Of a stretch of 64,000 nucleotides of DNA, positions 44,303 to 55,486 are shown piece by piece (the stretch's first letter is position 1; every line of letters starts with the position of its first letter). The notes under the pieces were generated by a model that did not search any database, had not been told where the DNA came from, and worked only from the letters and a program-made list of their open reading frames with translations. The position numbers and the translations under genes were made by a program. The DNA is from Cytophagaceae bacterium (GTDB taxonomy: Bacteria > Bacteroidota > Bacteroidia > Cytophagales > Spirosomataceae). The stretch is from the NCBI GenBank assembly GCA_027491315.1, contig JAIXWL010000005.1:62001-126000 (forward strand), read 5' to 3'.

Positions 44303-47300
44303 GTGTTAACGCGCCGTCTTTACCTATTTTTCCTTACCCTTGCACTCTTTTTCTTTGAATTGAAACAATCGAGGAGTCAAAGAATAGGAGGTTTTTTATT
44401 TGATAAATTACCTCAAGACTATCAATTATATCCCAGAAATCATCAAAACAATGGCCTGATCTCCATTGCTGGTACTTCCGATTCGAATCAATGGACGAAT
44501 ATATCCATTGTAGTAAATAGAAATAAGGATCGGTATTCCTATTCAAAAATCAAATTAAACTTCCAACAAGGTCTAGGTTTTTTCAATACGCAAATCAGCA
44601 TCAAAGCAGAGTTAGCTGAATACGAAATTCAAATTTACGCCATACAACAACAGGACTCTATTCTAATCGTCAACAGAAAAAACATTGTGGCGGGTGATGT
44701 CTTTTTAGTCAGTGGACAGTCCAACTCGTATAATGGGAAAGAGAACAAAAAAGTCTACAAGGGTGAATTTGCCCGGAGTTTTGGAAAATATGCCAACTAT
44801 ACCAATACAGTGCCATATAACCCCTCAGACACTTTGTGGTCTATCTCCAATAGTCCCGCAGATGTAGGTTTATGGGCTTCTCAAATCCAAAAACATATCA
44901 TAGAGGAACAAAAAATCCCAGTCTGCATCATCAATGGAGGCTCTGGAGGTTCATCCATGGAATATAATCTGGCAAGAGGAGTAGAAAAAGCAGATCTGTC
45001 GCAGTCGAGCGGTAGATTGTATTATAAAGTCATGAAAGCAGGCTTATTGAATGCAGCAAAGGCTTTTATCTATCGGCAGGGGGAAAATGATTCCAATGGA
45101 AATGCTTTGGGCTGGCTGGAAAACTTTAAAAAGCATGTTGATTTGTTAAAAAAGGAATATCCGAGTATTCAGAAAATTTATTTACCTCAAATCAATGTCG
45201 TGGATGGGAATTATGCCATGCAAGGGTATTTGAGAAATGATCAACGCAAAATTCTTCAAGAGAACCACTTCATTCAAGGATTTGCTACGGTGGGTACCCA
45301 AGGATACGATGGAATTCACTATACACCAGAAGGTTATTTTCAAAGTGCATGGGAGATGTATCGATTATTGGATCGTGATTTCTACAGTAAAAAAATCAAT
45401 GCGGCTTATGAAAGTCCAAATCTAAAAAGGGCCTATTTTGGCTCAGCAGATAAAAAATTGATTGTTTTGGAATTTGACGATAAACAAGAAATGGTGGTAC
45501 AGCAAGACACCACGCTCATGACCAAGCAAGGCCAAAACTTGCTGAGGTCAATCCAAGAGAATTTCTATTTAACGGGTATTTCTTTACCTCAACTCAAATT
45601 TCAAGAAATACAAGCAGTCAAGGCTTATGGAAACAAGGTTGTAATACGTTTGGAAAAAGCTCCCTTAGAAGAAGTTATTTCTTACTTACCAAGCTATTTT
45701 CCCAAAGACAATTTCAATCAATTTTCTGGACCTTATTTGAAAAACAAAGGAGGTATGCGGGCTTTTAGTTTTGAAAATATTCGAATTGAGCCAATAGAAC
45801 TTTTCGATACATTAGCCAGTGTGCATACTTTTTATACGATTCCTCAAGACTACCAATTATTTCCCCGAAATAAAAAAACGAATTTAGGAGAAATTACCTT
45901 GGCAGGGAATGAAAGAAGTGGCCATTATAAGGCTATTTCAGCAATTTTAAAAACAATTAATGGGATTCAGTCATACCAAAGATTGAATTTGGTTTATCAA
46001 AATAATAGAGCGGAATGGACTTTAAAATTGCCCATAAAAGCAGAAAAAGTAAATCATACCTTAGAAATATTTGTCCATAAATCATCCATAGATTCTGTGA
46101 AAATTGCCTCTAGAGGGCATCTGGTGGCAGGAGATATCATTCTGGTGAACGGAGGAATTAATGCAAGTGCCTCTTTTAATGAATCGGAAACGGATGAATT
46201 TTCCCGGACATTTGGGAGAAATTCCATCCAACATAATGGGGAGGAATACGCTCTGTCAGATACCATTTGGTCCGTCGCTAATTCCGCGGGTTATGCCAAT
46301 AATGTAGGCCCATTAGCTTATTCTTTACAAAAAAACTTATCCGAATCCCTTCAAATTCCCATTGCCCTATTGAATCTTAGCGACCATCACTCTACCACGG
46401 AAGGATTATTGAAATCGGCCATGGACACTTTATCGCTAAGAACGAACTATGGCAAAATGCTCTATCGAATCGAAAAAGCTGGACTAAAGAATCAGGTTAA
46501 AGCCTATATTTTCCGACATGGTGAAATCGATTCGGATAAGATAGCTCAGTCGACCATCGCTTCTGTAAATCAGCTAATTCAGGATTTAAAAGATGATTTC
46601 CCGGGCTTAGAGAAAATCGTACTTTGTCAAAATGACATTGGCGACCACCCTAGTGAAAATGGCGCTATTTTACGAGAATTTCAAAGGACCATTACCCGAA
46701 AATTCCCCATGGTAATCCCTTTCAGTACGCTGGGAACTAAGGGTTTTACAGGTTCCATTTATTCCAAAGAAGGATACCAAAGTAATGGTAGAGAAATTGC
46801 CCAACTATTACTTCTGCAAGTCTATCAGCTAGGAAATTCTGATGTTGAAAACGGAGCGCCCAATTTAAAAAAGGTGTACCAATCACGCACGAATCCGGAA
46901 AAATTGACCTTAGAATTTGAAAAAGGTCAAAACATTCAGTTTCCAGGTACCTTCACTCATCCCTCTGGCAAAAAATTGGAAATCAATGAATTTATCAATG
47001 TGGATAATTTTGCCTTTCAAATTAAAAAAGCCACAGTCAATGGTCATAAAATTGAATTGGATTTAGTTTCTAATACCCCCAAAAATACGATCTCATATTT
47101 ACCTTCTTTCGTTAGTAGCAATTACTATTTTTTTCCCTATTTAGGCCCATATATCCAAAATTCTAAAGGGAAAAATGCCTTTTCATTTTACCAAGTTAAA
47201 ATTCAAAAAGCTCTAGGTGCGCCCAAAATACTAGAAAAGCAGAAAAAATGGGATTTGATTTCCATTCAATGGGAGAATTTACCTCAGGCCTCATCCTACC

Positions 47301-48010
47301 AACTTCTAAGAAAAAAATCAGGTGAGACTAATTTCCAAGTAATGGGTCTATATTCGTCATCAACGAATTCATTTAGTGAGATTCCAGCAAAGCTCAACAC
47401 GTCGTATGAATACCAATTGATTGCCCAAAATGATTCCACAGAATCTGATCCTGCCATGATTACCATAAGTGTACCTGACTCGTTAAATAGTATTCCGTTG
47501 AGTTTAGTCAAGCAAGAAAAACTAAGTATTCCATTAATCTGGCCTAAAGTCGCTGATGCTAGTAAATATGTCTTATCAAGACAAGGGCCAGGAGAACCTT
47601 TTAAGACTATTTATCAAGGAAACGAGATACAATTTGAAGATAAAGAAATTACTGCTGGAATAAGTTATCTGTACAAAATGCAATACTTTACGGAGACAGG
47701 AATATCTCAAACTAGTTATTTAAAAGCCAAAACAGAATTAACCTTAGGTACCGAAAATGAAGCTAAAAATGGTATTCGCATTTTCCCTAATCCGAGTAAA
47801 AATCTAATGACCATAGAATTTGGGGAGCAAATTTCAGGTCAAGTTTTCCTAGTTAATATGAACGGAATGCGCTTAAAACATTGGGGGATTTTTCATCAAA
47901 ATTCCTTAGAGATTTCTTTGGCAGATTACCCAGAAGGCAGCTATTTCATCCAAATTCAAAACGAGCAATGGCCCTCAGATTTAATATATAAAGTTGTACG
48001 TATACCTTAG
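44303..48010 (+). CDS. T9SS-exported protein with tandem SGNH/SASA esterase domains
   Basis: A 1235-residue secreted protein. It begins with a GTG codon and a signal peptide ending near SRSQ. Two homologous halves of about 480 residues follow. In the first, the SGNH esterase residues are intact: GQSNS (Ser140), RQGEND (258-263) and DGIH (Asp336, His339), as in sialate O-acetylesterases. In the second, the matching positions are Ile619, Thr816 and Ile819, so it is almost certainly inactive. Two FN3-like domains (about residues 985-1145) and a T9SS type A sorting domain (IRIFPNPSKNLMTIEF near residue 1157) complete it. It probably deacetylates surface or dietary glycans. Confidence 0.85.
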   Translation: MLTRRLYLFFLTLALFFFELKQSRSQRIGGFLFDKLPQDYQLYPRNHQNNGLISIAGTSDSNQWTNISIVVNRNKDRYSYSKIKLNFQQGLGFFNTQISIKAELAEYEIQIYAIQQQDSILIVNRKNIVAGDVFLVSGQSNSYNGKENKKVYKGEFARSFGKYANYTNTVPYNPSDTLWSISNSPADVGLWASQIQKHIIEEQKIPVCIINGGSGGSSMEYNLARGVEKADLSQSSGRLYYKVMKAGLLNAAKAFIYRQGENDSNGNALGWLENFKKHVDLLKKEYPSIQKIYLPQINVVDGNYAMQGYLRNDQRKILQENHFIQGFATVGTQGYDGIHYTPEGYFQSAWEMYRLLDRDFYSKKINAAYESPNLKRAYFGSADKKLIVLEFDDKQEMVVQQDTTLMTKQGQNLLRSIQENFYLTGISLPQLKFQEIQAVKAYGNKVVIRLEKAPLEEVISYLPSYFPKDNFNQFSGPYLKNKGGMRAFSFENIRIEPIELFDTLASVHTFYTIPQDYQLFPRNKKTNLGEITLAGNERSGHYKAISAILKTINGIQSYQRLNLVYQNNRAEWTLKLPIKAEKVNHTLEIFVHKSSIDSVKIASRGHLVAGDIILVNGGINASASFNESETDEFSRTFGRNSIQHNGEEYALSDTIWSVANSAGYANNVGPLAYSLQKNLSESLQIPIALLNLSDHHSTTEGLLKSAMDTLSLRTNYGKMLYRIEKAGLKNQVKAYIFRHGEIDSDKIAQSTIASVNQLIQDLKDDFPGLEKIVLCQNDIGDHPSENGAILREFQRTITRKFPMVIPFSTLGTKGFTGSIYSKEGYQSNGREIAQLLLLQVYQLGNSDVENGAPNLKKVYQSRTNPEKLTLEFEKGQNIQFPGTFTHPSGKKLEINEFINVDNFAFQIKKATVNGHKIELDLVSNTPKNTISYLPSFVSSNYYFFPYLGPYIQNSKGKNAFSFYQVKIQKALGAPKILEKQKKWDLISIQWENLPQASSYQLLRKKSGETNFQVMGLYSSSTNSFSEIPAKLNTSYEYQLIAQNDSTESDPAMITISVPDSLNSIPLSLVKQEKLSIPLIWPKVADASKYVLSRQGPGEPFKTIYQGNEIQFEDKEITAGISYLYKMQYFTETGISQTSYLKAKTELTLGTENEAKNGIRIFPNPSKNLMTIEFGEQISGQVFLVNMNGMRLKHWGIFHQNSLEISLADYPEGSYFIQIQNEQWPSDLIYKVVRIP

Positions 48011-48072: not shown

Positions 48073-49791
48073 TTATAAATTACGCTTCTTCAATTCACTC
48101 ACGGCAAAATCAGCCGCACGAGCAGTTAATGCCATGTAAGTCAATGATGGGTTCACGCAAGAAGCCGAAGCCATTGCAGCACCGTCAGTGACAAATACGT
48201 TTTTAACGTTGTGAATCTGGTTATGCTTATTCAATACCGAGGTCTTAGGATCACGACCCATACGAGCAGTACCCATTTCGTGAATACCTAAACCGATATG
48301 TGTATTAGAATTATTGTAGGCATTGATATTTTTAAAACCAGCTGCTTCTAACATTTCAGCCGCGTCATTCATCATATCCTGACGCATTCTAATTTCATTT
48401 TCACCAAATTCTGCTTCAAACTCTAAAACTGGAAGGCCCCACTTATCTTTTTGTGTTTGACTTAAAACAAAACGGTTATTAGGATTTGGAAGAATTTCTC
48501 CAAAACCACCGAAACCAATAGTCCATGAACCTGGCTGAGTTAAACTCTCTTTAAACTCAGCTCCAAATCCATCCATGTTGGTACCACGTCCCCAGCCTGC
48601 ACGGCTAGCTCCACCTTGGTAACCGAAACCACGAATATAGCTACGCTTATCATTACCCCAGTTACGGAAACGAGGGATATATAGACCATTTGGACGGCTT
48701 CCAAACATGTAATCGTCGTTAAATCCTTCAATTTGAGCAGATGCCCCTACACCTAAATGGTGGTCCATGATGTTGCGGCCTAATTGATCGCTATCATTTC
48801 CTAAACCATTGGTGAAGCGGCTCGACTTAGAGTTCATCAAAATGGAGGTAGAACCTATGGCCCCTGCATTAACAAAAATGATTTTAGCAAAATATTCCGT
48901 CACTGCCATCGTGTTTTGGTCAATCACTCGAACACCTTTTGCCTTTTGAGTAGCCTCGTCATAAATAATTTCAGAAACGATGGCATTATGAATCATGGTC
49001 AAGCGTTTAGTACGCATGGCAGCGGGTAAAGTAGCCGAAAGTGAACTAAAATAACCACCATATGGACATCCACGCATACATTTGTTACGATACTGGCATG
49101 CACCTCTACCCAAAGCCGTGTGGTGAGCACCAGGCTGGGTTAAGTGAGCTACACGACCGATAGTAACCGGACGACCTAATTTCTTATTTAATTGCTCTTT
49201 GAAATATACTTCTGGGGCAGTTAAAGCCATAGCCGGTAAGAATTCGGAATCAGGCAATACGTCCAAACCTTCTCTTTGACCTGATATACCAGCAAATTTT
49301 TCTACATAAGAATACCATGGAGCTAAATCCTCGTAGCGAATAGGCCAATCTGTCCCAATACCATCCTTGGCATTTGCTTCAAAATCTTCTTTATTCCAAC
49401 GATAGGATTGACGTCCCCAAAGTAATGATTTACCACCCGTATGATAAGCACGAATCCAGTCGAAACCACCCTTTTTCTCGATGTAGGGATTTTGCTTATC
49501 GTTTTCAAATAAGTAACGATGCTCTTCATTGGGTGTATAACCGGTACGCATACCTGCCCAATATTCTTCCGCCGCCATATTGGTTGGACGACCACGGTGA
49601 GGGAAATCCCAAGGATCTTTCAATGCGGTCTCATAGCCCTCTACGTGTTTAATTTCACGGCCACGCTCTAGCACAGCTACTTTTAATCCTTTTTCAGTTA
49701 ATTCTTTGGCAGCCCAGCCACCTGATATACCAGAGCCTACGACAATAGCATCGAAGGTCTGACTTTTTATTGCATCTATGTTAAGATTCAT
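48073..49791 (-). CDS. GMC family FAD-dependent oxidoreductase
   Basis: A 572-residue flavoprotein that oxidises an alcohol or sugar. It shows the FAD-binding AIVVGSGISGGWAAKELTEKG near residue 15, the GGKSLLWGRQSYRW segment, CRNKCMRGCPYGG typical of sugar dehydrogenases, and the late catalytic HIGLGIHEMGTARMG and VNPSLTYMALTARAADF stretches. There is no export signal of its own; in this family the small subunit, encoded 23 bases upstream, carries the twin-arginine signal and can take the large subunit along. Together they resemble gluconate 2-dehydrogenase-like enzymes without an obvious cytochrome subunit here. Confidence 0.9.
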   Translation of the reverse strand: MNLNIDAIKSQTFDAIVVGSGISGGWAAKELTEKGLKVAVLERGREIKHVEGYETALKDPWDFPHRGRPTNMAAEEYWAGMRTGYTPNEEHRYLFENDKQNPYIEKKGGFDWIRAYHTGGKSLLWGRQSYRWNKEDFEANAKDGIGTDWPIRYEDLAPWYSYVEKFAGISGQREGLDVLPDSEFLPAMALTAPEVYFKEQLNKKLGRPVTIGRVAHLTQPGAHHTALGRGACQYRNKCMRGCPYGGYFSSLSATLPAAMRTKRLTMIHNAIVSEIIYDEATQKAKGVRVIDQNTMAVTEYFAKIIFVNAGAIGSTSILMNSKSSRFTNGLGNDSDQLGRNIMDHHLGVGASAQIEGFNDDYMFGSRPNGLYIPRFRNWGNDKRSYIRGFGYQGGASRAGWGRGTNMDGFGAEFKESLTQPGSWTIGFGGFGEILPNPNNRFVLSQTQKDKWGLPVLEFEAEFGENEIRMRQDMMNDAAEMLEAAGFKNINAYNNSNTHIGLGIHEMGTARMGRDPKTSVLNKHNQIHNVKNVFVTDGAAMASASCVNPSLTYMALTARAADFAVSELKKRNL

Positions 49792-49814
49792 ATAAGTAAT
49801 GATATTTGATCAGA

Positions 49815-50417
49815 TTAATATTGATATGCTTTTTGGCCCGGCTTCAATTTGGTTGGTTCAAATTTGCCTGGAACTGTTACATATTCAAAAGAAGAGGTAA
49901 TTCCTTTTTCAGAAGTAAAGTAACCCAAAAGCGTTAGCTCTTTGATTAATCTCCAGAATGGGACTCCATTATTTCCTTCCAAGGTTTCTTTATCGACATT
50001 ATCGCCCACTTTTTGTTGTTTCAAACGATAGGAACTCATGAGCTCTTTGGTGTTGCTTTCCAACAATTTCAGCATGGCTATTTGACCACTTGCGTTTTGA
50101 CTTAAAAAACCAGCCTTGTCTAAATCAGAAACCCCTTTTAGAAAGCTTCTTTGCTCGGCCAATTTATAGCAATCAGTTAACATTAATTCAATAAATGCAG
50201 GAACTCCAGCTTCAATAGCTCCTGGGGTGGACGTTTTAGGAATAATGTGTTCTGATACGGCAGCCACTATTTTCCTTTGAGTCTCCGACAAGCTAAATGA
50301 TTCAGCCAAGTTAGCCTTGCCAAGGTGTTTCGCTTCCATAGCCATTAATGTCGGAGCGGTAATTGCACCCCCTAACATCACAGCTATTTGTGAGATAGCA
50401 TCTCTTCTTGTAAGCAT
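49815..50417 (-). CDS. Gluconate 2-dehydrogenase subunit 3-like protein
   Basis: A 200-residue small subunit with a twin-arginine-like leader (MLTRRDAISQIAVMLGG). The core shows VAAVSEHIIPKTSTPGAIEAGVP (given here by the shorter segments VSEHIIPKTSTPGA and VPAFIELML), WRLIKELTLLGYFTSEKGI, and the end YEFVTV-like ditto SSFEYVTVPGKFEP, all typical of family Gluconate_2-dh3. It pairs with the GMC enzyme encoded next. A terminator and palindrome lie between this gene and susD, so it is likely transcribed separately. Confidence 0.88.
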   Translation of the reverse strand: MLTRRDAISQIAVMLGGAITAPTLMAMEAKHLGKANLAESFSLSETQRKIVAAVSEHIIPKTSTPGAIEAGVPAFIELMLTDCYKLAEQRSFLKGVSDLDKAGFLSQNASGQIAMLKLLESNTKELMSSYRLKQQKVGDNVDKETLEGNNGVPFWRLIKELTLLGYFTSEKGITSSFEYVTVPGKFEPTKLKPGQKAYQY

Positions 50418-50478
50418 AATTTTATGGGTTAATAAGTTCTTTAAAGTATCCGTTTACTCAATCAAATCGATACGAAAA

Positions 50479-50486
50479 CAAAATTA
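50479..50486 (-). promoter_or_regulatory. Possible -7 box for the GMC operon
   Basis: TAATTTTG on the minus strand matches TAnnTTTG 62 bases before the small-subunit ATG. No TTTG -33 box is seen; the upstream DNA is an A/T tract. Confidence 0.35.
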
Positions 50487-50522
50487 ATCAGAATATTGAT
50501 TTTTTTTTTTTTTTTACAAAAA

Positions 50523-50550
50523 AAAGGGGCTGATTTGATTCAGTCCCTTT
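50523..50550 (-). terminator. Terminator downstream of susD
   Basis: AAAGGGACTGA and TCAGCCCCTTT (minus strand) form a near-perfect stem with a G-T wobble, followed by a run of T and a further 16-base A tract. Confidence 0.7.
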
Positions 50551-50652
50551 ATAAATAATTAAATCAACGAATGTATTCTCAAAAAAGAGAACCTATTCAT
50601 TTTTTATCAAGTAGTTGAATAGGTTTAGAGGGGATTTTGGGGGATTTTTACC

Positions 50653-50685
50653 AACGCTGTCAAGGTTTTAAACCTTGACAGCGTT
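50653..50685. repeat. Interspersed 33-bp palindrome, copy 5 (fully symmetric)
   Basis: Here both arms are perfect (GTC left, GAC right). The symmetry extends to 24-base arms around one base, from 50645 to 50693. T runs outside the stem make it terminator-like on either strand, 16 bases past the susD stop. Confidence 0.9.
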
Positions 50686-50700
50686 GGTAAAAAAACAGAT

Positions 50701-52368
50701 TTAGTATCCCGGATTTTGTTTTAAATAACCCGTTAAGTTAGATGCTCCATCAATCGCAGTTTGAGGAATAGGGAACAAACGCATGTTTTTATCCGTATTA
50801 TTTTTCTCTGTCCAAGAATCTTCATATTTACCAAAACGAATTAAATCCGTTCTACGTTGATTCTCCCAATAGAATTCAAAACCACGCTCACGAAGTAAAG
50901 TATTTAAATCAATACTTGTTAAAGCTGGAGCTGGCTTGGTACGTGCTGCACGAACAGCATTAACATCTACCAAGGCACCTGCTGCATCTGACTTACGTAA
51001 TTTAGCTTCTGCACGCATTAAGTAAGCATCAGCTAAACGAATAATCACGATATCTGCCTCACCAAAGTTACGTCCAGAAGAAGACTTCTTGGAGAATTCA
51101 TATTTCTCCACGCGATAGCCTGTGCTGTAATCACTACCTGCAGTAGTAAAGTTCACTGTCTCTGTATGAATAACTAAAGGATAAGGTGCTTTACCACGCG
51201 TATTATACAATGGACCTACTTTAAATTTACCATCTGGACATTTCACAAAGGCTCCGCTTTGAAAAACCAAGCCATATTGTTGACCTCTTAAAATACCACG
51301 GTCAATATTATATGAATTACCATCCACACACTCAACTTTAGGGTCTACATTTCTTCTATAAAAACGAGGATCTGCATCAGCTGGATCAACATTTCCATAA
51401 GCATTTACCCATGAACGATAAAAATCTGGAGTAATGGCAGGACCATCTGTACCATTAGCTGCTGGATAAGCAGGTAGAGGACGCTGGTCATTAGCTAAAG
51501 AGAAATAAGCCATACGGTTATGACCATTCAATTCAGCACGTTGATCTACTGCAAAAACCAATTCCTTATTGGAGTGATTATCATTACCAAAAATTGCAAA
51601 ATAATCTGCTGATAAGGCATACTGACCAGAACTAATAATCTTAGTTGTATATTCAATCACTTTATCCATATCAGCTGCTGAATGGTTTAACGTAGCTCCA
51701 TAAGGATCACGGTAAGCAGCTGCATTTAGGTGCAATTTGGCTAATAAACCCCAAACAGCTCCTTTAGTAATACGACCCGGACCTGTAGTTGTTTCTACAA
51801 TTGGCTCAATAGCTAATAATTCAGTACGAATATATTCCACTGCCTTATCCGTTCTCAAAATGGTAGAAACATCTCCCAAATCTTCCTTTTGAAAAGCAAC
51901 ACCAAATAAATCCAACATCAATAAATTGTAGAATGCACGCATACCACGAGCTTCAGCAATGTAAAGCGTAGATGAGGCATCTTTGTTCACCTTTAAGGAA
52001 TTAATGGCTGTAACCGAGCGAGAAATTCCTTGTAAAATAAGGTTCCAAGTATTTCTTACGTTAGGATCTGTACTCGTCGTTTGGTGACGGTGTAAAGACA
52101 AATAGATACCATTATCACCCCAGTCTGTACCTCCACGATATGGAAGGATAGCCTCATCTGTTGAAATTTCAGTTAAGGCAAACAAATTGGTATGCTGGTA
52201 AATACTAGGCAATAAAGCATAAGCTGGCGCCAAAATTCCATCAGCCGCCTGTTTATCGGTCACTTTAGTAGCATTATACTCATCTAAAATGATTTCATTC
52301 AAATTGGTACAGCTATAAAAAGCCATCATACCAAAAAGAACTATGGTTATTTTTCCTATCTTTTTCAT
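50701..52368 (-). CDS. SusD/RagB family surface glycan-binding lipoprotein
   Basis: A 555-residue lipoprotein (signal ending in AFYSCTN, Cys near residue 20) that forms the lid of the SusC porin and binds the imported glycan or peptide. Typical SusD segments are present: AEARGMRAFYNLLMLDLFG near residue 138, the TPR-like helices with AVWGLLAKLHLNAAAYRD, and the C-terminal RLADAYLMRAEAKLRKSDAAGALVDVNAVR with LRERGFEFYWENQRRTDLIRFG. It follows SusC by 13 bases. The GMC and LacI genes flank the pair. Confidence 0.94.
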   Translation of the reverse strand: MKKIGKITIVLFGMMAFYSCTNLNEIILDEYNATKVTDKQAADGILAPAYALLPSIYQHTNLFALTEISTDEAILPYRGGTDWGDNGIYLSLHRHQTTSTDPNVRNTWNLILQGISRSVTAINSLKVNKDASSTLYIAEARGMRAFYNLLMLDLFGVAFQKEDLGDVSTILRTDKAVEYIRTELLAIEPIVETTTGPGRITKGAVWGLLAKLHLNAAAYRDPYGATLNHSAADMDKVIEYTTKIISSGQYALSADYFAIFGNDNHSNKELVFAVDQRAELNGHNRMAYFSLANDQRPLPAYPAANGTDGPAITPDFYRSWVNAYGNVDPADADPRFYRRNVDPKVECVDGNSYNIDRGILRGQQYGLVFQSGAFVKCPDGKFKVGPLYNTRGKAPYPLVIHTETVNFTTAGSDYSTGYRVEKYEFSKKSSSGRNFGEADIVIIRLADAYLMRAEAKLRKSDAAGALVDVNAVRAARTKPAPALTSIDLNTLLRERGFEFYWENQRRTDLIRFGKYEDSWTEKNNTDKNMRLFPIPQTAIDGASNLTGYLKQNPGY

Positions 52369-52381
52369 TTTTGTTTAACGA

Positions 52382-55300
52382 TTAAAATGTAAGATTTAAG
52401 CCGAAGATGACAGATTTAGCTTTTGGATAGCTTAAGTAGTCAATTCCATAAGATAATACTCCGTTCATAGAGCTATCTTTATTTACCTCTGGATCAAATC
52501 CATCGTAATTGGTAGCAATCCATAAGTTTTGTCCTGTTACAGATAAGCGTAAAGTTGAAACCCACTTACTAATTCCTAGTTTTTGTGTGTCAAACGTGTA
52601 TCCCAAAGTAGCGTTGTTCAAACGTAAGAAACCGCCATCTTTTAAGAAACGAGTAGACACAGGAGCTGCATTACTGTTCGATTCTCTTGAATCAGCAAAT
52701 GCTGCCGGCGTTGTATTGGAGTTTTTCGCAATTTTCAACTTATAGAAATTCGAGTTGGCTGTATTATCATAAATTTTATTTCCAGCAACTCCGTTGAATT
52801 GTAAAGACAAGTCAAATCCTTTGTAAGCTAAATTTCCAAAGAAGTTATACTGTGTTGATGGCAAGGCTGTTCCTGCTGCAATACGATCTTTATCTGTTAC
52901 AATTCCATCACCATCCACATCACGGTAAACACTCATACCTTTGTCATCATATCCAGTAAATTCTTTCAAGAAGAATGTACCGATAGGCTGTCCATTGATA
53001 TAACCATTGATGGTAGCTGATGTCAAACCTGAACCAGAGGCAGAACCTGAAGGTATTACTGTGTAAGGTGAGCCTACAACTTCGTTTTTAATCAAAGTCA
53101 AGTTACCACCTAAACTATATTTCCAACCAGTTTCAGTCGTTCCTTTATATTCCAAATCCAATTCTAAACCACTGTTATTGATTTTCATATCTTTCACGTT
53201 TGCCCAAACTGATGAAGCAGGTTGAACAGGATCTGAAGGAATTACTTCCAATAACATGTTGTTAGAAACTTTGTTGAAATAATCTATCGATCCAGAGAAT
53301 GCTCCATTTCCGAATGCAAAATCCAAACCAATGTTACTTTGCGTTGAAACCTCCCATTGAATATCTGGATTAGCTAAACGAGAATAGGTAATTCCTGATG
53401 GGAAAGTTGAAGTATTATCCAAAGGATAAGAAGTTGTTCCAGAGATGGTCGAAGTAAACAAAGGCTGTGTAATTTTCGAAGGTATCTCTTGGTTACCTGT
53501 TTGTCCCCAACCTGCACGTAATTTCAAGTTGCTGATATCGGTATTCTTCAAGAAAGCTTCTTCAGAAATTCTCCATCCTAAAGAGAAGGAAGGAAACACA
53601 CCGTATTTGTTATTAGCACCAAATTTAGATGAACCGTCAGCACGAACAGTGGCTGTCACCAAGTACTTATCTTTATATTGGTAGTTAAAACGACCAAAAT
53701 AAGATTGTAACTCATTGATAAATGCTGAACCACCTGGTTTATTCGTTGCCATCGTTAATTCTTGACCTACACCTGGGTTATAGATTGGGTCAATTGGCAA
53801 ATCCGCAGGGAATTTATTGATACTCCAGTTACGGTATTGAACTTTAATTTTTTGATATGAATGACCTACCAAAGCAGAGAAATTATGATCTCCGTTGTCA
53901 TAGGTATACGTCAAATAGTTCTCAACCAAACGGTTGTTATTATTAGCTAAATATGAATCTAAACGACCATCTTGTTTTGGAATGTTACTACCTAATGATT
54001 GAATATCACGCGTTGAAGTTGAATTATCCAAACCAAAGTTCAAACGATACACTAAGCCTTTCACAATTTTCAAGGATGGTGAAATGCTAGCAATCGTACG
54101 GTTGATGGTTGTAATGTCTTTAAACAAAGTCAATCCTAACAAAGGGTTAGAAGCTGTGGCATAACGAGCCAAAGATCCATCTGCCGCATAAGCAGGGAGT
54201 GTCGGGTTGTTCGCAATGGCTGTTCCTAACAATCCTTCAATGGATGGACGCTCATTATTAGTATTGGTTACATTTAAATTAGCATCAACAACCAAACGAT
54301 CCTCCCAAAACTTCTGAGTCACATTGATACGACCTGTGTAACGATCTAATTGGTTATTTTTCAATATGCCTTCTTGAGTTTGTGCTCCAAAAGAAGCATA
54401 GTAAGAAAGCTTATTGGCTCCACCACCCAAACTCAAGTTATAGTTTTGAGTTAAAGCCTGACGTGTAACTTCTTTTTGCCAATCTGTATTTCCTCCGAAA
54501 TCTTCCAAGTTACCGCCATTGGCTACTACTTGTTTACGGAATTCAGATGCTGATAAAACAGGTAATGCACGAGCGATGTTTGAAACAGCTAAACTAGAGC
54601 TGAAATTCAAAGTTGAAACACCCGCCTTACCCTTTTTAGTAGTAATTAAAACTACACCATTGGCACCACGAGCACCATAAATAGCAGTGGCAGATGCATC
54701 TTTTAACACGTCAATGGTTTCAATGTCCTGAGGATTCAAGAAGTTCAATGGATTTCCTCCACCTGTACTTGAATTATCCAAAGCTAAACCATCAATGACA
54801 AATAATGGAGTACTCCCAGTACGAATACCTCCTGGTCCACGAATCGTAATTCCTTGATTACCACCTGGCTCACCCGTGGCAGAGGTAACATTAACACCAG
54901 CCACTTTACCCTGTAATAATTGCTCTGGAGAGTTGATGATACCTTTATTAAAGGCCGCGCTTTGAACCGACTTAACAGAACCTGTTACATCACGCTTGTT
55001 TTGTGTACCATAACCTACCACAACTACCTGTGCCAAGTCAGCGGCATTGGCCACCATGGCAATTTCTAATGATGATTTAGAACCTACGCTTACTTCTTGA
55101 GTAGCATAACCAAGGTAGCGAACTACCAATACCGCGTTGTCATTTGGTACTGAAATAGTAAATGCACCATTTACATCCGTGCTTACTCCTTTGGTTGTAC
55201 CCTTAAGAATTACGTTACCGCCGATGAGTGCCTCTTTGGTAGTGGCATCAAACAATCGACCTTTAATTTGTTTACCCGCTTGTGCATTCAAATTGAATGT

Positions 55301-55399
55301 CCCAAGCATGATGATACTGGCTACAAAAAATAGTACTATCCGAGTACTTGCATTTCGTAACAAAGCACACCATAATGGATCGTGTAATTGTTTTTTCAT
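52382..55399 (-). CDS. SusC/RagA family TonB-linked outer-membrane transporter
   Basis: A 1005-residue TonB-dependent porin for oligomer import, working with SusD. Order: signal peptide, a CarboxypepD-like N-terminal domain (KGRLFDATTKEALIGGNVIL), the TonB-box and plug start (VVVGYGTQNKRDVTGSVKSV), the plug motif VIDGLALDN with LKDASATAIYGARGANGVVLI, and the 22-strand barrel ending KSVIFGLNLTF. The ATG before KKQLHDPL was chosen; a further upstream one would add 26 residues without signal features. A LacI-type operator lies 88 bases upstream, so sugar-responsive control is likely. Substrate cannot be deduced. Confidence 0.94.
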   Translation of the reverse strand: MKKQLHDPLWCALLRNASTRIVLFFVASIIMLGTFNLNAQAGKQIKGRLFDATTKEALIGGNVILKGTTKGVSTDVNGAFTISVPNDNAVLVVRYLGYATQEVSVGSKSSLEIAMVANAADLAQVVVVGYGTQNKRDVTGSVKSVQSAAFNKGIINSPEQLLQGKVAGVNVTSATGEPGGNQGITIRGPGGIRTGSTPLFVIDGLALDNSSTGGGNPLNFLNPQDIETIDVLKDASATAIYGARGANGVVLITTKKGKAGVSTLNFSSSLAVSNIARALPVLSASEFRKQVVANGGNLEDFGGNTDWQKEVTRQALTQNYNLSLGGGANKLSYYASFGAQTQEGILKNNQLDRYTGRINVTQKFWEDRLVVDANLNVTNTNNERPSIEGLLGTAIANNPTLPAYAADGSLARYATASNPLLGLTLFKDITTINRTIASISPSLKIVKGLVYRLNFGLDNSTSTRDIQSLGSNIPKQDGRLDSYLANNNNRLVENYLTYTYDNGDHNFSALVGHSYQKIKVQYRNWSINKFPADLPIDPIYNPGVGQELTMATNKPGGSAFINELQSYFGRFNYQYKDKYLVTATVRADGSSKFGANNKYGVFPSFSLGWRISEEAFLKNTDISNLKLRAGWGQTGNQEIPSKITQPLFTSTISGTTSYPLDNTSTFPSGITYSRLANPDIQWEVSTQSNIGLDFAFGNGAFSGSIDYFNKVSNNMLLEVIPSDPVQPASSVWANVKDMKINNSGLELDLEYKGTTETGWKYSLGGNLTLIKNEVVGSPYTVIPSGSASGSGLTSATINGYINGQPIGTFFLKEFTGYDDKGMSVYRDVDGDGIVTDKDRIAAGTALPSTQYNFFGNLAYKGFDLSLQFNGVAGNKIYDNTANSNFYKLKIAKNSNTTPAAFADSRESNSNAAPVSTRFLKDGGFLRLNNATLGYTFDTQKLGISKWVSTLRLSVTGQNLWIATNYDGFDPEVNKDSSMNGVLSYGIDYLSYPKAKSVIFGLNLTF

Positions 55400-55486
55400 G
55401 AATTGATTTTTTGAAATGGTAATTTTTGGGTTTAAAAATTTTTGAAATTTACCGATTAATAATTGTAATATCTTCACAAATTTTTA

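Follow-up and report, generated by a model that had tools for sequence, protein, structure and literature searches.

A putative cell-surface acetylesterase of Aquirufa carries a homologous second unit that has lost its catalytic residues

In the stretch of 64,000 nucleotides that was analysed (the window), the gene at 44303..48010 on the + strand encodes a tandem of CE20/SASA-like units, of which the first has its catalytic residues intact and the second is a pseudoesterase that, by alignment, has lost all of them. We consider it moderately likely that the product combines a surface acetylesterase with a pseudoesterase that has come to bind glycan. The ORF, stop included, starts with GTG and encodes 1235 aa, with the boundaries given in the initial annotation, and orthologs are found at the same locus in genomes G002 and G016. 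The host is an Aquirufa sp. (Spirosomataceae), a freshwater bacterium with a genome of 2.9 Mb; PMC10821818 assigns Aquirufa to the Spirosomataceae.

The protein consists, in order, of a signal-like N terminus, unit 1, unit 2, two Fn3-like repeats and a T9SS type A tail, and all coordinates below refer to the + strand. The signal-peptide-like N terminus (aa 1-25; 44303..44377) is a hydrophobic stretch in the translations of 3/3 orthologs, and its cleavage is putative. Unit 1 (aa 26-503; 44378..45811) was delimited by alignment, Pfam scan, AF2 model and structure match, and unit 2 (aa 511-968; 45833..47206) by alignment, model and structure match. The two units are homologous, approximately 470 aa each, and share a three-part architecture of a beta-sandwich, an SGNH core and a C-terminal beta region; the linker between them is approximately 7 aa long. 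The Fn3-like repeats (aa 969-1159; 47207..47779) were recognized by their similarity (E 6e-28) to the tail of L065, a protein that has Pfam fn3 matches; a Pfam scan of the window protein itself gave no fn3 match. The sorting tail (aa 1160-1235; 47780..48007) scored above cut-off for PF18962 and TIGR04183, and SprA, PorU and PorV were likewise detected above cut-off in the genome. These findings agree with an earlier proposal of T9SS export, and the protein is predicted to be exported by this route and probably resides at the cell surface.

The two halves had been described as homologous from their very starts, and this was borne out: residues 37-46 (PQDYQLYPRN) correspond to residues 514-523 (PQDYQLFPRN), the halves align over their full length, and a phmmer search with half 1 retrieved half 2 from a small database with 202 bits (E 1.5e-61). 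Our alignment also reproduced the reported fate of the catalytic triad, in which S140, D336 and H339 of unit 1 are retained and their counterparts in unit 2 are I619, T816 and I819. The motifs GQS140N, RQ259GE and D336GIH339 of unit 1 thus appear in unit 2 as GGI619N, RH739GE and T816GSI819. At the nucleotide level, Q139-S140 of GQSN, the predicted oxyanion Gln and nucleophile (44717..44722), is replaced by G618-I619 (46154..46159); Q259 of the block III RQGE (45077..45079) by H739 (46517..46519); and D336-G-I-H339 of block V, containing the catalytic acid and base (45308..45319), by T816-G-S-I819 (46748..46759). Two losses therefore come in addition to those noted initially, namely the oxyanion Gln of GQSN (Q139 to G618) and the Gln of QGE (Q259 to H739). 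Family-invariant residues that flank these positions are kept (G617/N620, G740/E741 and Y820/G824), which makes the alignment there unambiguous. In the SASA family, the oxyanion site is made up of the Gln of GQSN and the QGE motif (PMC9487903), and CE20 enzymes likewise use the GQSN Gln (PMC12313940). Unit 2 therefore lacks the nucleophile and the base, the acid, and both of the Gln residues. It very probably has no classical esterase activity, and unit 1 is predicted to be catalytically active. The question of whether relatives show the same active/dead asymmetry was answered affirmatively by 3/3 available Aquirufa orthologs, of which L012 and L013 are 73% and 70% identical to the window protein and have the same intact/dead split, and by a separate tandem lineage described below.

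To what extent unit 2 keeps the fold was assessed with AF2 models built on the window and locus sequences, which had a pLDDT of 92.0 for unit 1 and 93.3 for unit 2. The best structural match of both units was the CE20 enzyme XAC1771 (7kmm_A), with Z 27.7, rmsd 4.7 and 396 aligned residues for unit 1 and Z 28.3, rmsd 4.7 and 399 aligned residues for unit 2; a phage tailspike scored equally, and further CE20 members and SIAE came next. This shared best PDB match, used in place of direct superposition of the halves, supports the initial view that the fold outlived the triad; as far as prediction can tell, the dead unit retains the fold, and both modelled units have the fold of the CE20 catalytic chain. 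Consistent with this assignment, the family sequence profile retrieved bacterial CE20 proteins at E 1.4e-11 to 5e-8 and SIAE from E 7e-7, with matches to 9ega, 9h4u and 7kmm. Scanned alone, unit 1 matched SASA (PF03629) at 30.3 bits, above the gathering cut-off of 24.8, and unit 2 gave no match to this family, despite its clear homology to unit 1. Of the active-site features of CE20-like enzymes, unit 1 has the GQSN Ser, the block V His, the oxyanion Gln and QGE, and unit 2 has none (I619, I819, G618 and H739, respectively, and T816 for the Asp). As a separate observation, phage tail proteins match the SGNH module structurally, among them the Pan3 tailspike (9vyh, Z ~27-28) and, in the case of unit 2, the phage N4 tail (9lc0) as well.

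The window protein thus shares with CE20 enzymes (XAC1771, Fl8CE20_II and PpCE20_II) and mammalian SIAE the three-part fold around an SGNH core and, in unit 1, the GQSN and QGE motifs. It differs from them in having D-x-x-H rather than D-x-H, and in combining two units in one chain, one without catalytic residues, with a T9SS tail. The bacterial CE20 pair characterised in PMC12313940 has an ancillary domain inserted in the SGNH core, and no such insert is seen in a unit of approximately 470 aa here; CE20 members lacking it, such as SIAE, are known.

The loss of catalytic residues from unit 2 is selective, well above chance. We used as reference 52 columns conserved in at least 95% of 60 intact domain sequences from relatives. 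Unit 2 keeps 44/52 of these columns in all three Aquirufa orthologs and has lost 8/52 in all of them, and 5/5 catalytic columns are among the eight (hypergeometric 2e-5, a guide only, as columns were treated as independent). The N-terminal sandwich accounts for the remaining three lost columns, which are R73, A105 and Y107 when numbered as in unit 1. Purifying selection acts on unit 2, less tightly than on unit 1: pN/pS between orthologs was 0.24-0.26 for unit 2 and 0.14-0.17 for unit 1, this being the only usable ratio since dS was saturated. No frameshift or stop interrupts unit 2 in the three species. Within its SGNH core, the loops of the former catalytic blocks are better conserved between species (45/58 positions) than the rest (97/178; p = 0.002), and this held when family-variable columns alone were counted (26/37 versus 73/147; p = 0.03); the test used sequence windows rather than 3D distances and three orthologs, and the loops themselves contribute to the fold. 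Among the residues of these loops, D694, H695, H696 and H739 in blocks II and III are new and invariant in the three orthologs, with D694-H695-H696 in the old block II loop at 46382..46390 by alignment. Purifying selection and the additional conservation of the old catalytic loops make it likely that unit 2 has a retained role, and they do not distinguish binding from scaffolding.

The initial annotation had regarded unit 2 as a second copy that became a binding or structural module. The units are homologous and the catalytic residues of the second are gone; however, unit 2 falls in another subfamily and is not a decayed copy of unit 1. Grouping both Aquirufa halves in one clade was rejected (AU p = 6e-5), and therefore the tandem does not stem from a recent duplication within the gene. 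In a tree of 54 domains, the Aquirufa unit 2 was instead sister to the second unit of L065 (support 99/93, stem branch 1.74). L065 is a protein of 1499 aa from another genus (G152) in which both units have intact catalytic residues; it is co-linear with the window protein, with 41% identity in a single alignment that spans aa 6-1065 and a similar tail. Phylogenetic placement thus traces unit 2 to a catalytically intact lineage, with the residues lost on the branch toward Aquirufa. The tandem may be common to Aquirufa and G152 through descent or through transfer.

Catalytic loss of this kind happened twice. In a second tandem lineage, six genomes of genus g2 have two intact units, and four genomes of genus g11 have a dead second unit, in which S-D-H has become T-D-Q, T-N-Q or G-Y-Y; of the 52 columns, only S140, Q259 and H339 were lost in 4/4 of these dead units. 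A single shared loss for all dead copies was rejected (AU p = 2e-4), and this test is conservative, because convergent loss would draw the dead copies together in the tree. Our survey covered 124 distinct domains, 123 of them complete at the catalytic sites. The Ser, His and both Gln were invariant except in seven domains, all of which are C-terminal copies of tandem proteins; the corresponding chance figure of 5e-8 overstates the evidence, as the seven represent two events. The reconstruction accordingly places two independent losses, each in the C-terminal copy only. Intact tandems and two losses that left the scaffold columns almost untouched amount to a repeated natural experiment in the conversion of an enzyme domain into a non-catalytic module. 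The pairs of intact and inactivated sisters, G152 versus Aquirufa unit 2 and g2 versus g11, allow testing of whether catalytic loss improves glycan binding. In SASA/CE20 annotation, such proteins should be counted as having one active site, not two. Literature searches in an open-access library yielded no tandem SGNH pseudoesterases, although such proteins may have been described elsewhere.

In the mechanism that we propose, unit 1 would act at the cell surface as a carbohydrate O-acetylesterase of the CE20/SASA kind, with Ser140 attacking the acetyl ester, His339 and Asp336 serving as the base, and Gln139 and the QGE motif forming the oxyanion site. Unit 2, descended from an intact esterase unit and devoid of catalytic residues, would be incapable of this chemistry and would be kept as a folded non-catalytic module, the old substrate cleft of which would most likely bind an acetylated glycan, either the same one or one close by, and so keep unit 1 near its substrate. 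Glycan binding by unit 2 is suggested by analogy, since the fold is kept, the cleft is constrained, and CtCE2 provides a precedent. In this CE2 SGNH esterase of Clostridium thermocellum, cellulose binding takes place in the active site itself (PMC2661963), and the affinity for cello-oligosaccharides rose nearly 8-fold with one substitution that eliminated activity (PMC7828330). The likeness lies in the use of an SGNH cleft for non-catalytic polysaccharide binding beside another catalytic module; CtCE2 differs in keeping a Ser-His dyad and activity and in belonging to a different family, and binding was measured in CtCE2, whereas for unit 2 we only infer it. PgaB is likewise described as having tandem esterase-related domains, the C-terminal one being an inactive pseudoesterase (PMC7828330). 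It resembles the window protein in joining an active N-terminal deacetylase to a C-terminal domain to which glycan binding but no catalysis was ascribed, although PgaB belongs to CE4 and is not an SGNH protein. The precedent is weak, because the C-terminal domain has reportedly been assigned glycoside hydrolase activity since then. CtCes3 of C. thermocellum has two CE3 SGNH domains in tandem (PMC9487903) and is thus similar in having two SGNH esterase domains per protein, but its domains are 97% identical and no dead copy was reported.

The main rival explanation is that unit 2 is a ligand-free structural module, that is, a spacer, a dimerisation surface, or a stabiliser or regulator of unit 1, which we regard as possible but doubtful. 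It would account for the nature of the 44/52 retained columns, which are mostly scaffold residues, for the looser constraint relative to unit 1, and for a linker of only ~7 aa, with which the units probably pack together. It does not readily explain why the old catalytic loops, including their family-variable columns, are better conserved than the remaining core, and the Fn3-like repeats already act as a spacer in the window protein and its relatives. The same loop conservation is compatible with a new functional site in the old cleft, catalytic or metal, composed of D694, H695, H696, H739 and E741, all five of which are invariant in the three orthologs and the first four of which are substitutions located exactly within the block II/III loops. 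If so, the protein would pair an esterase with a neofunctionalised sister domain, not a passive binder. We consider such a site unlikely, given that the invariance comes from three orthologs only, that the proximity of the residues is putative, and that the independent dead lineage g11 lacks such His residues.

Two further possibilities carry still less weight. That unit 2 is a decaying relic heading for loss from a dispensable gene would fit its long stem branch (1.74) and the close relatives that lack the gene at the same locus, but a pN/pS of ~0.25, an uninterrupted reading frame in three species, 44/52 columns kept and a pLDDT of 93 make this very unlikely. That unit 2 is still an esterase, using other nucleophile and base residues, is the most improbable: the triad acid does vary among SGNH enzymes, as in the water-mediated contact of CE20 and the Ser-His dyad of SIAE (PMC12313940), but such variants all retain Ser and His, whereas unit 2 has neither of these, nor either Gln of the oxyanion site.

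In 3/3 carriers, the gene is on its own, with a glycosyltransferase-like gene on one side and a GMC oxidoreductase gene on the other, each encoded on the opposite strand. Three close relatives with the same flanks (G004, G005 and G013) have a site without the gene, of only about 155-350 bp, and a search for gene remnants at these empty sites yielded only short, chance-level matches. Carriers and non-carriers stand side by side in the flank tree, and therefore the gene was probably lost or gained more than once. It is present in 3/38 genomes of the genus; the same gene was found in Aquirufa aurantiipilula 15D-MOB, and a scan of genome contigs with unit 2 as the query gave a hit in A. aurantiipilula only. 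The module occurs in 161/222 genomes of the family and is sparse elsewhere in the phylum. Adjoining the gene at 48073-55477 (- strand) are genes for the GMC oxidoreductase, a small partner protein, SusD and SusC, which are ~88-97% conserved between species where the esterase gene is only 70-73% identical. A functional link to these GMC oxidoreductase/SusCD genes was considered and not supported, as they lie on the opposite strand and are kept in genomes without the gene. Between the same flanks, another Aquirufa genome (G007) has an alpha/beta hydrolase (BD-FAE) fused to a GDSL lipase domain (L118:8732-10378). The locus may be a site of surface-esterase swapping.

Several other relatives of the module were observed. 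A protein of 1416 aa in G123 (L066:3670-7917) has one recognisable SGNH unit followed by ~900 aa without an identified domain. A relative of unit 1 with 45% identity (L064:3135-5195; also L041; G174) contains two in-frame TAA codons and represents a pseudogene or a sequencing error. The single-unit, 700-aa proteins L014 and L015 were not supported as the ancestral form of the tandem, as they occupy a different locus and have an unlike C terminus except for the sorting tail; by eye, the region toward their C terminus carries, instead of Fn3, an Asp-rich stretch of the form DxDxDG that is reminiscent of the calcium-binding thrombospondin type 3 repeats. The genome of the window also encodes, on contig C8, a single-unit paralog (L010:1486-3225) with an intact triad, a T9SS tail and 40% identity to unit 1, and paralogs of this type are found in most Aquirufa genomes.
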